Below are positions 40,105 to 47,141 of a DNA stretch of 47,141 nt, piece after piece. The first letter of the stretch is position 1. Each line of letters starts with the position of its first letter. Below the pieces are notes generated by a model, which searched no databases, was not told the origin of the DNA, and saw only the letters and a list, made by a program, of their open reading frames with translations. The translations under genes were made by a program, and so were the position numbers. The stretch spans positions 1 through 47,141 of the forward strand of contig PBLA01000022.1 of the NCBI GenBank assembly GCA_002722245.1, in the 5' to 3' direction. The stretch is from Flavobacteriales bacterium. Lineage in GTDB: Bacteria > Bacteroidota > Bacteroidia > Flavobacteriales_C > GCA-002722245.

Positions 40105-43100
40105 TTGAGAGCTGTTGAGAAAATTACGAGAGAGTTAATCTTAATCGCTTTATTTTTTATTAACACGTCCTTGATTGCTCAAAAATATTGGGTTTCAGGG
40201 AATGGAAAATGGAGTGATTCAAGTCATTGGTCTTTGACCAGTGGTGGTTCCGGTGGTGCTTCTGTACCTACAATGGATGAAGATGTAATTGTTGATCTAA
40301 ATTCCGGATTTACTGACGGAGATTCAATTATTATTACTTCTGGAGCTCAAGTTCAAAATCTAGATTTCTCTAAAAATTTTGTGCCAATAAATTTCGTTGG
40401 AGATTCGCAATCTAATTTTTTGCTTTCGGGAAAAATTTTTTTCGGGAATAAAGTTGAGAACAAGTTTGAAGGAAAAGTCATTATGTCAGGGACATCTTCT
40501 GATTTTGGCATGAAGATTTATAACTCAGGAGAGTTTTATGGATTGCAAACTTTTGATGCTGTTTACAAAAATAAAATAAAAAACACATTACAAACGCTTT
40601 CGGTTACGAGTTTAAGTGTAACAGCGAATGATGCGACATGTGGTTGTAATGGTTCTATTACTGTTAGTCCTAATGATGGGACAGGTCCTTTTGGATATAG
40701 TTGGGATGTTACTGCAGCAGAAGATCCTGATGGATTAGGCACCCCTAATTTAACTAATGTTTGTCCTGGTTTGTACACTATTCAGGTTTATGACTCAGCT
40801 GATGGACCTAATCCATTACCATATTTTTATCCTGTTCCAATTATAATTAATGGTCCTGCTCCTATTACAATTGTATTAGCTAGTAATGATAGTGTAAGTT
40901 GCAATGGAGGATCAGATGGCCAGATTCAGACCAATGTCTACTTTGGAGCAGGGGGATATGATTATGAGTGGAGAGATGATTCAGGGCCTATTGGTCAAAC
41001 CGCCGCTACAGCAGTGGGTCTTTCAGCTGGAAATTATACTTTACATGTAACTGATATTGATGGGTGTACTGCTGAGAGTGAGGTTTATACTGTTTTAGAA
41101 CCAAATCTACTTACGACTTCTATAACTTCTTCTACAAACGTAGCATGTTATTCAGAATGTACTGGGAGTGCGACTGTGACACCTTCAGAAGGGACTCCTG
41201 GATATAGTTATGATTGGTACGATGCTGGAAATCAAACAGCAAGTACTGCAGTGAATCTGTGTGATGGGACTTATCATGTTGAGGTAACGGACAATAAGGG
41301 ATGTACTGATACGAGCCAAATAACAATTACAGAACCTACAGAACTAAAAGTTTCGATTGCTTCATTTACAAATGAGCAATGTTTTAATGCGAGTGATGGA
41401 CTAGCTACTGCACAAGCTGAAGGAGGTGTAGAAGATTATACATGGGATTGGTACGATAAACCAGGAGGTTCAACTGTTCCAAATTCAACAGGTTTTCCTG
41501 ACGGAACCTATCATGTAGAAGTTACGGACGATAATGGTTGTAAAGATACCGCTCAGGTTACGATTACCGGTCCGTCTTTATTAACATCTTCTATTATAGA
41601 TACGGTACATATTTTATGTCATGGAGACGCTACTGGTGAAGCTCAAGTCAGTGCTTCAGGAGGTACGCCGGGAATGGGGTATTCGTATTTGTGGAATGAT
41701 CCAGGCGGTGAAACATTACCTAGGCTTACAAATGTTGTTGCAGGAACCTACAAGGTTATAATAACTGATGCAAACGATTGTTTAGATTCTTCACAAGTTA
41801 CAATTACTCAGCCTTCATCACCCCTTAGTTCATCAATTACTGATGTTACTCATGCCTCATGCAATGGAGATTGTAATGGTGGGGCAATTGTAACACCCTC
41901 TGGAGGAGTTGGCAATTACACATACAATTGGTATGATGCTCCAGGTGGAATTACCGATTCAAGTATTACTGACTTGTGTCCAAGCACCTACAATGTTCGA
42001 ATTACAGATGGTAATGGCTGTCAGGATATTTCCACTGTTGAAATCAATCAGCCTTTTGGATTGGAATCATCGGCCATTATAACAAACGCCAATTGTAAAA
42101 GTGTGTGTGATGGAGCCATTGACCTTACTCCAATTGGTGGTACAGCTGGATATAATTTTGATTGGTATGATGTTCCAGGTACTCCAACGACGGAAGATTT
42201 AACAAATGTATGCGCGGGTACTTACCATGTTGAAATTGAGGATGTAAATGGGTGTCTTGACACTTCCGTTTACACAGTAACCGAACCAGACACATTGGTT
42301 GGTGGTATCTTAACTTCTACAAATGTGCTATGTCATGGAGATTCTACTGGTTCTGCCGTAGTAAATGAAACTGGAGGAGTAAGTCCCTATGTATATACTT
42401 GGTATGATATTCCAAATGCTCCTGGATCAGGAGTTGTTCAAAATGATCTTCCTAGTGGTATTTTTAATATTGAAATAGAAGACGCACAGGGGTGTAAGGA
42501 TACTGTAGAGTTGTCCATCACAGAACCAGCCTTACCGTTATCATCAATAATATCTGATACCGTTCATGTCTTGTGTAAAAATGTGTGTGAGGGAGAAGCT
42601 GAAGTTACTGCCTCTGGAGGGGTGCCTGACTACAACTATGATTGGTATGATGTCCCTGGAACTCCAACAACAAACAGAGCTACAAATTTATGCGATGGTA
42701 CTTATCATGTTGAAATCACCGATTTAAATGGTTGTTTGGATACGTCAGAGGTAATTATTGTTGAACCTGCCACAGAGGTTTCCATAGATGTTACAGATTC
42801 CAGCAATTTAAAATGTAACAATGTTTGTGAGGGAGAGGCTTTTGCAGTGTATACAGGAGGTACGGGTGTTTTGACTCTTGATTGGTATTCCGCAGGGAAT
42901 CAAATAACGGATACGGCTTTTAATTTATGTGCTGGTCCACATTATGTTGAGGTAACCGATGATAATGGTTGTAAGGATACTGCTCATGTTGTTTTAACAG
43001 AACCCACAAAACTAGACGTCTCCATAACAGCATTTACTAATGAGAAATGTTTTAGTGCGAGTGATGGAACGGCAACTGCTGAGGCAACTGGGGGAACAGC

Positions 43101-46100
43101 TCCATATACATGGGATTGGTATGATAAACCTGGTGGATCAACCGAACCAAATGCAACAGGTTTTGCACCAGGAACATATCATGTAGAGGTGACTGATTCA
43201 CTTGGATGCACCGATACTGCCGAGGTTATAATAACAGGTCCTACATTGCTTACCTCATCTATAATAGATACTGTGCATATTCTTTGTTTCGGAGTTGCTT
43301 CGGGGGAAGCGGAGGTGAGTGCATCAGGCGGGACAATTGGCTTAGGTTATACGTATCTCTGGAATGATCCTTCTGGTGAAACACTTCCTCGTTTAACAAA
43401 TGTTCCTGCTGGGGATTATAAAGTGTATATAACGGATTCAAATAATTGTGTTGATTCATCGGAAGTGACCATTACTGAACCTGCTGAGGCGGTAAATTCC
43501 TCTATAACGGATACAACACATGCGTTGTGTAAGGGTGATTGTAATGGTGGCGCAATTGTTACTCCCTCAGGTGGTGTTGGTAATTATACTTATGACTGGT
43601 ACGACGCTCCAGGTGGAATAACCGATTCAACCATTATTAATCTTTGCCCGGGAACCTATAATGTTCGTACAACAGATGGTAATGGTTGCGAGCATATATC
43701 AACAGTTATCTTAACGGAACCAGATGAGTTAACAGGATCCACAAATTTAACGATGGCAAAATGTAAAAGTGTTTGTGATGGGGCAATTGATCTTACTCCA
43801 ATAGGAGGGACACCTGGTTACTCCTTTGATTGGTATGATTTCCCTGGCACGCCTTCTACGGAGGATTTGGTTGATGTTTGTGCTGGAGTATACAATGTGG
43901 AAATTGAGGATGGAAACAACTGTTTGGATACCATAGAAGTAACAATTACGGAACCTGATTCACTTGTAGGAAACGTGTTAACTTCCACCAATGTTTTATG
44001 TCATGGAGATTCAACCGCGTCGGCAACCATTAGTCAATCGGGAGGTGTTGATCCATTTAATTATTCTTGGTATGATATACCGAATGCACCTGGAACGGGA
44101 CCGACTCAAAATGATTTGCCAAGTGGGATTTTTAATATTCAAGTTGAAGATGCAAATGGTTGTAAAGATACTGTTACACTAACTGTTACTGAACCTGATC
44201 AATTAACTTCCTCTATTTCTGACACTGTTCACGTATTGTGTAAAAATACGTGTAGTGGAGAAGCTGAGGTAGCAGTGCTTGGTGGAGTACCTGATTATTC
44301 GTTTGATTGGTATGATGTTCCGGAATCGCCATCAACAGCAAGAGTTAGCGGGTTGTGTGATGGAACATACCATGTTGCGGTTACGGATTTAAATGGTTGT
44401 TTGGACACCTCAGAGGTTACGATAACTGAACCATTAACGTCAATTTCTGTTGATATTATTGATTCAGTTAACTTACGTTGTAATGGACTATGCGAGGGAA
44501 AAGCGTTTGCAATTTATTCTGGTGGTACTGGAGCCATCGTGTTGGATTGGTATTCTGCCGGTAATCAAATTACTGATACTGCTTTTAATTTATGTGCGGG
44601 AGCAAACTACGTTGAGGCCACCGATGAGAACAGTTGTAAGGATACAGCAGAAGTGTTTTTATCTGAACCGGATGTAATTGTGATTAATTCAAATCCTCCC
44701 GTAATGCCTACTTGTTATGGGCTTTGCGATGGAGCCTTGAGTGTTTCTCCAATTGGGGGAACTCCACCATATCAATATAATTGGTTTGATGCCGTTGGAA
44801 CACCTACTACACCTTTTGCAGAAAATCAATGTTCTGGAACCTTTAATGTGAGAGTAGAAGATTCTTTAGGATGTGTGGATACATTGTTTTTAATTTTACC
44901 GCAACCAGACTCATTGTATTACGATGTTGATACAGTGGTTAATCTCTTATGTAAAGACATATGCGATGGTTCAACATCCATTACGCCTGTTGGAGGAACT
45001 CCGCCTTTTAATATTGTTTGGTACGATCTTCCAAGTGCACCGACAGGTCCAAGTCAAGATAATTTATGTGGAGGCACTTGGAACTTTGAAATTACAGACA
45101 ACAATGGGTGTTTGGATTCAGGCTTAATAAATGTGGTTGAGCCAGCTCTTGAGTTGTCCTCATCAATTAGCGACACTACTCATAATTTATGTTTTGGAGA
45201 ATGTACTGGCGATGCGACGGTATCCGCAAATGGAGGAACAGGTGCCTTCCAATATGATTGGTATAATACCCCCAATAAGGATACAGTAGCAACCGCTGAA
45301 AATTTATGTGCCGGAACTTATCATGTTGAGATTACAGATGAAAATGGTTGTTTGGATACCTCATCAGTAACCATTTCGGAACCTTCGAATATTCTAATTG
45401 ATACTTATGTTGACAATTCAGAATGTGGTAGTATTGATACAGCAAAGGCTAGTGTATCTGTTTCTGGCGGTGTTGGTCCCTATACCTATGATTGGTATGA
45501 TGCGGGCAATCAAACGAATGACACGGCTTTCGGACTTTCGGTTGGTACATATCATTGTGAGATCATGGATGCAAACGGATGTTTAGATACCGCGGAGATA
45601 ATTGTTTCCTCACCAGTAAGTTTGAATGTTGGAATAAGAAATGATACCATTCATGTTGATTGTTATAGCAACTGCAATGGTGTTGCAGTTGGTGAAATAT
45701 CAGGTGGAACCTTGCCATTTATCTATAATTGGTATGATGTTCCCGGCTCACCCAGTGACTCTGTTGCCGAGGACTTGTGTAAAGGTATTTACCATCTCGA
45801 GGTGATTGATAATTTAGGATGTAGGGATACCACGGAGTTTGAAATACGAGAGCCTGATTCTCTTATTTTGTCGACCGACTCTGTCGAAGCATCTTGTTTT
45901 GGAATTTGTGACGGTCAAGCATCGATAGCTTACTCTGGCGGAACTGCGCCATATTTTGTTGATTGGTTAAATGCAGGTAATCAATCTACTGATACAGTCA
46001 TTAATTTATGTGCAGGATCATACAATATTGAAGTTACCGATAATAATGGTTGTAAGGATACAATTACAGGAGTGGTTACCGCCCCTATGGTTGTTTCTTC

Positions 46101-47141
46101 TTCAATCACAGATACGACTCATTTAAATTGTTACAATGATTGTAACGGATCAGCTATTGTGACACCTGTTGGAGGAGTTAGACCATATACCTATGATTGG
46201 TTTAATGCGCCAATGCTAGATCTTGATAGTACAGGAAATAATCTATGTTTTGGAACATATTATGTGGAAGTATCAGATGCAAATGGTTGTAAGGATACCT
46301 CAGAGGTGATGATTACCTCTCTTTCTCCTCAAATAACAGCGGATATGGATTCAATACTTACAAAATGTATTGCCTCTTCAGATGGTGCAGCAATAATTAA
46401 CGTTTCTGGAGGTATACCAGGTTATGATTTGGATTGGTTCAATGCTGGTAGTCAAACTTCTGATACAGCAGTTGGGTTACCAAAAGGGAATTACAGCGTT
46501 GAGGTTTCGGATAATTTAGGCTGTTTAGATACATTTTCTGTGGATGTCACTGAGCCCGATACATTAAAAGCACTAATTTCAAGTACAGTTCATATTGAGT
46601 GTCATGGGAATTCTACTGGAGAAGCGGTTACTTCACCTATTGGTGGATATGCCCCTTATACATATAATTGGTTCGATGCTCCAATGGGTGGAAATGATTC
46701 TATCGTTACTAATTTACCCTCGGGAGTTTATAATGTGGAGGTTGTTGATTCAAATGGTTGTATTGATACCGGTCAGGCTGTTATAAATCAGATGCCTGAT
46801 GTGCTTATTTTTACCGATTCAATCCCTGCAACCTGTACTGGAAAATGCACAGGTTCTGCGATTATTAGTGTAATAGGGGGCTTATTACCTTATAATTATA
46901 ACTGGTATGAAAATGACAGTCTAAATAATGATACTCTAGGTAATGTTTGTGCAGGATTTTATAACGTTGAGGTAACCGATGGACTAGGTTGTTTGGATAC
47001 TGCGACTGTTGAGGTTACAGAACCCATAACGATATCAGCTGCAGCTGTTGATTCATCCGGGGTAACGTGTTATGACGGCAATGATGGATGGGCAGTAGTA
47101 AGTGGTTCAGGAGGAACATTGCCCTATTCATATTGGTGGGA
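40105..47141 (+). CDS. giant SprB-repeat adhesin (3' end outside window)
   Basis: The frame opens after a stop at 40081-40083 and stays open to the window end. A TTG at 40105 gives a signal peptide ending LIALFFINTSLIAQ; the first in-frame ATG would lose it. At least 2345 residues. The start of the mature part reads KYWVSGNGKWSDSSHW, as in other large Bacteroidota surface proteins. From about residue 170 there are 27 complete SprB-type modules and a 28th cut by the window end, each about 79 residues with C-x-G-x-x-x-G core, GG-T-x-P-Y-x-Y-x-W-Y-D, G-T-Y-H-V-E-V-T-D and N-G-C-x-D-T. In gliding Flavobacteriia, SprB is a T9SS-exported, moving cell-surface adhesin. The C-terminal sorting domain is not in view. 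Confidence 0.93.
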   Translation, partial: MRAVEKITRELILIALFFINTSLIAQKYWVSGNGKWSDSSHWSLTSGGSGGASVPTMDEDVIVDLNSGFTDGDSIIITSGAQVQNLDFSKNFVPINFVGDSQSNFLLSGKIFFGNKVENKFEGKVIMSGTSSDFGMKIYNSGEFYGLQTFDAVYKNKIKNTLQTLSVTSLSVTANDATCGCNGSITVSPNDGTGPFGYSWDVTAAEDPDGLGTPNLTNVCPGLYTIQVYDSADGPNPLPYFYPVPIIINGPAPITIVLASNDSVSCNGGSDGQIQTNVYFGAGGYDYEWRDDSGPIGQTAATAVGLSAGNYTLHVTDIDGCTAESEVYTVLEPNLLTTSITSSTNVACYSECTGSATVTPSEGTPGYSYDWYDAGNQTASTAVNLCDGTYHVEVTDNKGCTDTSQITITEPTELKVSIASFTNEQCFNASDGLATAQAEGGVEDYTWDWYDKPGGSTVPNSTGFPDGTYHVEVTDDNGCKDTAQVTITGPSLLTSSIIDTVHILCHGDATGEAQVSASGGTPGMGYSYLWNDPGGETLPRLTNVVAGTYKVIITDANDCLDSSQVTITQPSSPLSSSITDVTHASCNGDCNGGAIVTPSGGVGNYTYNWYDAPGGITDSSITDLCPSTYNVRITDGNGCQDISTVEINQPFGLESSAIITNANCKSVCDGAIDLTPIGGTAGYNFDWYDVPGTPTTEDLTNVCAGTYHVEIEDVNGCLDTSVYTVTEPDTLVGGILTSTNVLCHGDSTGSAVVNETGGVSPYVYTWYDIPNAPGSGVVQNDLPSGIFNIEIEDAQGCKDTVELSITEPALPLSSIISDTVHVLCKNVCEGEAEVTASGGVPDYNYDWYDVPGTPTTNRATNLCDGTYHVEITDLNGCLDTSEVIIVEPATEVSIDVTDSSNLKCNNVCEGEAFAVYTGGTGVLTLDWYSAGNQITDTAFNLCAGPHYVEVTDDNGCKDTAHVVLTEPTKLDVSITAFTNEKCFSASDGTATAEATGGTAPYTWDWYDKPGGSTEPNATGFAPGTYHVEVTDSLGCTDTAEVIITGPTLLTSSIIDTVHILCFGVASGEAEVSASGGTIGLGYTYLWNDPSGETLPRLTNVPAGDYKVYITDSNNCVDSSEVTITEPAEAVNSSITDTTHALCKGDCNGGAIVTPSGGVGNYTYDWYDAPGGITDSTIINLCPGTYNVRTTDGNGCEHISTVILTEPDELTGSTNLTMAKCKSVCDGAIDLTPIGGTPGYSFDWYDFPGTPSTEDLVDVCAGVYNVEIEDGNNCLDTIEVTITEPDSLVGNVLTSTNVLCHGDSTASATISQSGGVDPFNYSWYDIPNAPGTGPTQNDLPSGIFNIQVEDANGCKDTVTLTVTEPDQLTSSISDTVHVLCKNTCSGEAEVAVLGGVPDYSFDWYDVPESPSTARVSGLCDGTYHVAVTDLNGCLDTSEVTITEPLTSISVDIIDSVNLRCNGLCEGKAFAIYSGGTGAIVLDWYSAGNQITDTAFNLCAGANYVEATDENSCKDTAEVFLSEPDVIVINSNPPVMPTCYGLCDGALSVSPIGGTPPYQYNWFDAVGTPTTPFAENQCSGTFNVRVEDSLGCVDTLFLILPQPDSLYYDVDTVVNLLCKDICDGSTSITPVGGTPPFNIVWYDLPSAPTGPSQDNLCGGTWNFEITDNNGCLDSGLINVVEPALELSSSISDTTHNLCFGECTGDATVSANGGTGAFQYDWYNTPNKDTVATAENLCAGTYHVEITDENGCLDTSSVTISEPSNILIDTYVDNSECGSIDTAKASVSVSGGVGPYTYDWYDAGNQTNDTAFGLSVGTYHCEIMDANGCLDTAEIIVSSPVSLNVGIRNDTIHVDCYSNCNGVAVGEISGGTLPFIYNWYDVPGSPSDSVAEDLCKGIYHLEVIDNLGCRDTTEFEIREPDSLILSTDSVEASCFGICDGQASIAYSGGTAPYFVDWLNAGNQSTDTVINLCAGSYNIEVTDNNGCKDTITGVVTAPMVVSSSITDTTHLNCYNDCNGSAIVTPVGGVRPYTYDWFNAPMLDLDSTGNNLCFGTYYVEVSDANGCKDTSEVMITSLSPQITADMDSILTKCIASSDGAAIINVSGGIPGYDLDWFNAGSQTSDTAVGLPKGNYSVEVSDNLGCLDTFSVDVTEPDTLKALISSTVHIECHGNSTGEAVTSPIGGYAPYTYNWFDAPMGGNDSIVTNLPSGVYNVEVVDSNGCIDTGQAVINQMPDVLIFTDSIPATCTGKCTGSAIISVIGGLLPYNYNWYENDSLNNDTLGNVCAGFYNVEVTDGLGCLDTATVEVTEPITISAAAVDSSGVTCYDGNDGWAVVSGSGGTLPYSYWW
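41344..43011 (+). repeat. higher-order repeat copy 1 (seven modules)
   Basis: Seven successive modules, 1668 bp (556 codons). Their order of subtype markers (TNEQCF with WYDKPGGS; IIDTVHILC with LWNDPGGETLPRLT; DCNGGAIVTPSGGVGNYTY; CKSVCDGAIDLTPIGGT; TSTNVLCHGDS with NDLPSGIFNI; SDTVHVLCKN; CEGEAFA with WYSAGNQITDTAFNLCAG) is repeated in the next block. Confidence 0.85.
43012..44676 (+). repeat. higher-order repeat copy 2 (seven modules)
   Basis: The same seven modules in the same order (TNEKCF with WYDKPGGS; IIDTVHILCFG with LWNDPSGETLPRLT; DCNGGAIVTPSGGVGNYTY; CKSVCDGAIDLTPIGGT; TSTNVLCHGDS with NDLPSGIFNI; SDTVHVLCKN; WYSAGNQITDTAFNLCAG), 1665 bp, directly abutting copy 1. It is clearly diverged from copy 1 at the DNA level, so the duplication is old. 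Confidence 0.85.

Follow-up and report, generated by a model that had tools for sequence, protein, structure and literature searches.

The SprB-type proteins, which rank with the largest known from bacteria, bear the force of gliding or attachment. Adhesins built from the SprB repeat (PF13573) are found in Bacteroidota as T9SS type B substrates, and the protein described here is like them in its modules, its sorting domain and its PorP/SprF neighbour. The PF13573 model spans 37 positions and stops before two of the four cysteine positions considered below (C' and D), so that the partners of the cysteines it contains fall outside the model. No description of a disulfide in SprB repeats, for either of the pairs discussed here, was found in the literature searched, in which coverage of subscription papers is sparse, and the newness of these bonds is provisional. 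SprF of F. johnsoniae is linked to GldK by disulfides through its twin-cysteine tail (PMC12635249). The closest solved structure is that of GhpA, the grappling hook protein of Aureispira (PDB 9FLP, 9FLW and others; profile E 2.7e-12, fold E 2.6e-6), which is likewise giant, consists of Ig-like domains in tandem, contains C-x-G and NGC motifs and shows about 25% identity in the fold alignment. Giant Ig-like adhesins of Gram-positive bacteria, such as the Mobiluncus adhesin, carry cross-links inside single domains (PMC10619420). In that adhesin and in Spy0128 the cross-links (isopeptide, ester or disulfide) join first and last strands and spare the domain core from load, as is proposed here, but each lies within one domain, whereas the bond proposed below would join neighbouring domains via cysteines.

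The adhesin gene and its modules

The window (the whole 47,141-nt stretch of DNA analysed, from contig C23) ends within a reading frame that exits the contig end. The encoded protein begins with an export-signal-like N terminus and a non-repeat domain extending to about residue 165, followed by modules 1–28, which match the SprB repeat PF13573 in 17 stretches (E 4e-126, 410.8 bits against a gathering cutoff of 28). Tandem Repeats Finder detected no repeats at the DNA level across the gene, because the module copies are too diverged. Cysteines are named by their columns in a 79-position module profile: A, early and constant (column 15); B, four residues after A and variable (column 19); C', in the N-L-C-x-G motif and variable (column 53); and D, in the final GC-x-D (column 67). 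The features are listed with window coordinates, strand and cysteine residue numbers.

40105..47141, +, ORF of the SprB-repeat adhesin; covers its N-terminal 2345 aa and is cut off by the contig end
40639..40764, +, module 1: A Cys179, B Cys181, C' Cys220, no D; expected N-terminal end cap
40900..41067, +, module 2: A266, D321, no B/C'
41146..41304, +, module 3: A348, B352, C'386, D400
41380..41541, +, module 4: A426, D479, no B/C'
41617..41781, +, module 5: A505, D559, no B/C'
41860..42021, +, module 6: A586, B590, C'625, D639
42094..42255, +, module 7: A664, B668, C'703, D717
42331..42495, +, module 8: A743, D797, no B/C'
42574..42735, +, module 9: A824, B828, C'863, D877; structure modelled
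42814..42972, +, module 10: A904, B908, C'942, D956; structure modelled
43048..43209, +, module 11: A982, D1035, no B/C'; structure modelled
43285..43449, +, module 12: A1061, D1115, no B/C'
43528..43689, +, module 13: A1142, B1146, C'1181, D1195
43762..43923, +, module 14: A1220, B1224, C'1259, D1273
43999..44163, +, module 15: A1299, D1353, no B/C'
44239..44400, +, module 16: A1379, B1383, C'1418, D1432
44479..44637, +, module 17: A1459, B1463, C'1497, D1511
44713..44874, +, module 18: A1537, B1541, C'1576, D1590
44950..45111, +, module 19: A1616, B1620, C'1655, D1669
45190..45351, +, module 20: A1696, B1700, C'1735, D1749
45424..45582, +, module 21: A1774, D1826, no B/C'; extra lone Cys1818
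45661..45822, +, module 22: A1853, B1857, C'1892, D1906
45895..46053, +, module 23: A1931, B1935, C'1969, D1983
46129..46290, +, module 24: A2009, B2013, C'2048, D2062
46366..46524, +, module 25: A2088, D2140, no B/C'
46600..46761, +, module 26: A2166, D2219, no B/C'
46834..46992, +, module 27: A2244, B2248, C'2282, D2296
47068..47141, +, module 28: A2322; ends at contig end, very likely continues on C10

The start of contig C10 (L031) is an exact 41-nt copy of the end of C23 (window 47101–47141), lying within near-identical module sequence, and the adhesin gene was very likely split by the assembly between these two contigs. The join is inferred from this overlap inside repeats; if it holds, the full protein would comprise about 4,480 residues. 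The 2143 residues by which C10 extends the frame comprise about 24 further modules, one Ig_7-like domain and one final Ig-like domain. They also include a T9SS type B sorting domain (TIGR04131/CHU_C, 65.8 bits against a cutoff of 35), which belongs to the adhesin provided that the 41-nt join is correct. A PorP/SprF-family gene (TIGR03519, 268.9 bits) directly follows the continuation on C10 and the SprA translocon (TIGR04189) is encoded in the genome, so that both the carrier gene and the translocon of a T9SS type B substrate are present. The adjoining SprF-like carrier (L031:6450-7770) is a 441 aa protein with a long charged tail and zero cysteines. It has no twin-cysteine C-tail for GldK attachment, as goes with SprB in F. 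johnsoniae, and the SprF–GldK disulfide of that species is a different bond from those considered here.

A and D are constant in modules 2–27, as described in an earlier note on this DNA, although the residue preceding D is not always the Gly of GC-x-D (DC in module 5, NC in 12 and 14, SC in 17). The same note reported that the two variable cysteines appear and disappear together, and a script count over modules 2–27 gave the same figures: 16 modules have both, 10 have neither and none has just one, a full concordance whose chance probability at these margins is 1.9e-7. Collapsing a duplicated block (modules 4–10 versus 11–17) leaves 12, 7 and 0 (chance 2.0e-5). The two halves of this block share 69% DNA and 73% protein identity, consistent with a duplication that is genuine but old. 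With the C10 half included, 29 of 50 modules counted in the protein carry the pair, 21 are without it, and 0 have a single member.

Two lone cysteines occur at positions that are normally Val. One, at column 59, is the extra cysteine of module 21 (residue 1818, nt 45556–45558, 'YHC'), and the other is at column 25 of a C10 module (L031, 'NAVCEV'). No partner column was found for either. A bond between modules at these columns was considered and dropped, since they lack a partner column and couple with each other as core contacts; the two residues are probably buried free thiols.

The earlier note had further suggested that modules with and without the variable pair might alternate as stiff and flexible segments along the fibre, and this was not borne out. 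The order of types in the window, and likewise in C10, is indistinguishable from random, and in the 61 proteins that contain both types, modules of the same type cluster (lag-1 z = +7.4), in some cases as long blocks. Four loci (L094, L137, L117 and L065) show a long pair-less block followed by a pair-bearing block, as might be expected if bridge-bearing and bridge-less modules were laid out as a mechanical code. Against such a code stand the random order in the window and C10 and the position of the B–C' bridge, which would lie off the inferred load path once module junctions are stapled as proposed below, and we regard it as unlikely.

Constant cysteines and probable staples at module junctions

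Modules of other proteins were gathered from relatives and from a scan of a genome contig collection queried with a single module, giving a wide set of 1,959 distinct modules (score at least 30, no ambiguous base) from about 130 loci. The constancy of A and D in modules 2–27 could be taken to mean that they form a disulfide within each module, with B–C' as a second bridge, and the one-bridge and two-bridge modules of the earlier note follow this reading, though constancy alone cannot separate pairing within modules from pairing between them. Losses of A and D within one module are independent ([[1866,47],[47,2]], p = 0.35), whereas loss of A in module n is coupled to loss of D in module n+1 ([[1715,3],[7,11]], p = 1e-21). 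Of the ten discordant junctions, when read, two proved to have a longer loop holding D, four to include Ig_7-type domains and one to contain ambiguous bases; about three are left, each with an extra cysteine nearby. Looser counts of A in n against D in n+1 include more discordant junctions, mostly from contig-truncated modules and indels, and the stricter rules were fixed before the replication loci. In these new loci the coupling across the junction recurred ([[391,1],[1,14]], p = 7e-24; same-module p = 1); both discordant junctions are artefacts, and three of the 14 double losses are repeats, since L166 and L194 are one locus retrieved twice. About eight proteins account for the double losses. 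Several of these are internally duplicated or closely related (L133/L096, L194/L166/L207), so that the count of 25 junctions overstates the number of independent events.

Residue couplings point the same way as the losses. In DCA, the strongest of 6,231 inter-module couplings is that of column 15 in module n to column 67 in n+1 (z = 8.5), whereas 15–67 within a module gives no signal (z = 0.4, rank 2,543). Couplings 13–75, 12–76 and 16–77 locate A next to where strand G ends. D lies where that strand starts, about 8–10 residues away along it, and the two cysteines of one module are therefore expected at opposite ends of it. AlphaFold2 models of two modules (pLDDT 96.8, pTM 0.82) and three modules (97.1 and 0.78) have well-defined junctions. 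In arrays of L105, L194 and L207, modules lacking A but retaining D alternate with modules retaining A but lacking D; this would leave an unpaired cysteine in every module unless neighbours are bonded, and therefore favours a bond between modules. The alternation itself looks like stapling at every second junction. Taken with the losses, these features make an A–D disulfide within modules very improbable. A disulfide linking A of module n with D of the next module probably staples each junction, and since the constant pair would then join neighbours, a module would have zero or one internal bridge, not one or two.

Array ends were compared in the same terms. D is lost in 25 of 151 first modules versus 1 of 149 last modules (p = 3e-7), and A in 12 last modules versus 2 first modules (p = 0.006); the replication loci, a smaller sample, show the same direction and are not significant alone (p = 0.06 and 0.16). 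Most end modules keep both cysteines (124/152 first, 136/151 last), and at such ends the D or A may often simply stay, or pair with a neighbouring domain of another family. Over the 54 domains of the present protein the balance is exact, with A and D at 53 each and B and C' at 30 each, besides the two lone cysteines; the first domain (module 1) lacks D and the last lacks A. Module 1 was previously set apart as an exception. Its C-x-C spacing and missing final GC are as described, but it carries A and both variable cysteines, and given the exact balance and its missing D, it is read here as the cap to be expected at the N-terminal end when a chain is stapled. Two ORFs at L032 (contig C30; 2188 and 1144 aa) are subtilase-like and carry SprB trios, in which the first module is without D and the last without A.

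The variable cysteine pair

The coupling of B and C' holds in SprB-repeat proteins of other species, and modules with a single one were not seen in any number. In the wide set, 643 modules have both, none has B alone and three have C' alone. These three (L097, L109, L119) have a substitute cysteine in the loop after the Trp; B is replaced, C' is kept and a new cysteine lies beyond the Trp, an apparent switch of partner. Among 457 modules fetched independently and counted under unchanged rules, 54 have both, 0 B alone, 0 C' alone and 403 neither. Low-scoring modules with a lone B or C' were rejected, since they are either misregistered alignments of Ig_7-type domains or sequences with ambiguous bases. 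Mean-field DCA of 1,748 adjacent module pairs ranked 19–53 first of 11,781 couplings (z = 42).

The predicted structure of module 10 (mean pLDDT 96.8) has strands at 6–13, 23–30, 37–40, 50–54, 57–64 and 70–77, which places B in the loop ahead of strand B and C' in the turn following strand E. A rarer facultative pair, 24–48, occurs together in 18 modules (18 and 19 occurrences of the two cysteines) and shares with 19–53 the antiparallel sum of 72 (19+53, 24+48; B/E ladder), so B and C' would face each other in the B/E register. The pairs 58–72 and 56–74 have a common sum of 130 (F/G ladder). Such rare co-occurring pairs (24–48, 58–72, 5–71 and 56–74, for example in L133, L096 and L171) mostly fit the beta-ladder register. 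A disulfide gained and lost as a unit, as the earlier note proposed, agrees with both the coupling in other species and this common register, and an internal, facultative B–C' disulfide is well supported by the sequence data.

The pairing of B and C' might instead reflect descent from two lineages of modules, with no structural reason for it, and the alikeness in type of neighbouring modules (lag-1 z = 7.4) and the distinct residue preferences kept by each type would fit such a history. Repeated joint changes argue strongly against it. On a tree of the protein's own modules with the cysteine columns removed, 14 of 14 changes in B and C' coincide, and on a tree of 1,573 modules without the four cysteine columns, 225 changes coincide out of 227 and 226. 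The event number is approximate, as short modules make for a noisy tree, but noise does not account for the coincidence; changes in a single column are almost absent. Modules of opposite type are up to 79% identical, those with C' and no B have a substitute cysteine, and modules with a single variable cysteine are absent at appreciable frequency from two data sets, so that descent alone is barely tenable. Just as implausible is a metal site or redox-active set, for although A and B make a C-x3-C (or C-x-C) motif, B–C' occurs without A (11 modules of the wide set, and also on contig C30 of the same genome) and A–D without B–C' (1,254 modules), leaving no obligate set of four ligands, and the extra facultative pairs 24–48 and 58–72 behave alike on beta ladders.

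A proposed ladder model for the fibre

The internal B–C' disulfide and the junction staple can be combined in one model, in which we have good confidence: an Ig-like module with an optional internal B–C' disulfide, staples from A of module n to D of n+1, and a ladder of two rails. The pairings rest on statistics of co-occurrence and co-loss, and from these we infer oxidation of the bonds in the cell and their mechanical role. Each module would be an Ig-like beta sandwich with the four cysteine positions. The B–C' disulfide would pin the A–B loop to the E–F turn at the C-terminal end of the module; because either cysteine alone would be a free exposed thiol, the two would be gained and lost as a unit. 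D of module n+1 would stand at the top of that module and be bonded by A of module n. A rail would then run from D(n+1) through the G strand, the linker and the A strand of n+2 to Cys A, and across the staple to D(n+3). Two such covalent rails would form a ladder, with the module cores (columns 16–66) as its rungs.

The spacing from D of module n to A of n+1 is 25–27 residues (5th–95th percentile, 1,838 junctions). With rail segments of this length, a rail spanning two modules in the folded state would be nearly taut, and little stretching of the fibre is expected. Ig-like domains have a general pitch of about 40 Å. With a 40 Å pitch assumed, unfolding could not lengthen a stapled fibre beyond a limit of about 95–100 Å for two modules, set by one 25–27 residue rail segment plus a disulfide, compared with about 80 Å when folded. 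Load would thus bypass the module cores and leave the fibre nearly inextensible. Rather than determining how far the fibre can stretch, the B–C' bridge, in a rung off the load path, may brace the staple-bearing loop; alternatively, it may protect the module from unfolding and proteolysis. Alternating arrays of the L105, L194 and L207 type would retain one complete rail. The broader proposition, that SprB-repeat adhesins across Bacteroidota are covalent ladders with a disulfide at every junction or every second one, rails that bypass the cores and strictly paired optional internal disulfides, we hold to be reasonably likely, with less assurance than the model itself.

If stapled, such fibres would be a cysteine-based counterpart of the isopeptide-locked pilins. 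Stapling would account for the transmission of motion by the fibres, predicts sensitivity to reductants, and would correct the obvious assumption that the constant pair forms a bridge within one domain. Where an assembly is fragmented, it would also provide a rule for telling where an array ends and whether modules are missing. The strict pairing of B and C' offers a clean natural data set on the gain and loss of disulfides. In proteins composed mostly of bridge-bearing modules (L087, L115, L120, L126, L158 and others), the last module is often without the pair. The present adhesin alone would need more than 80 disulfides, despite the absence of any match to DsbA, DsbB, VKOR or Thioredoxin_4 in its 95%-complete draft genome. 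A DsbA-family match is present in 13 of the 21 genomes of the relatives search.
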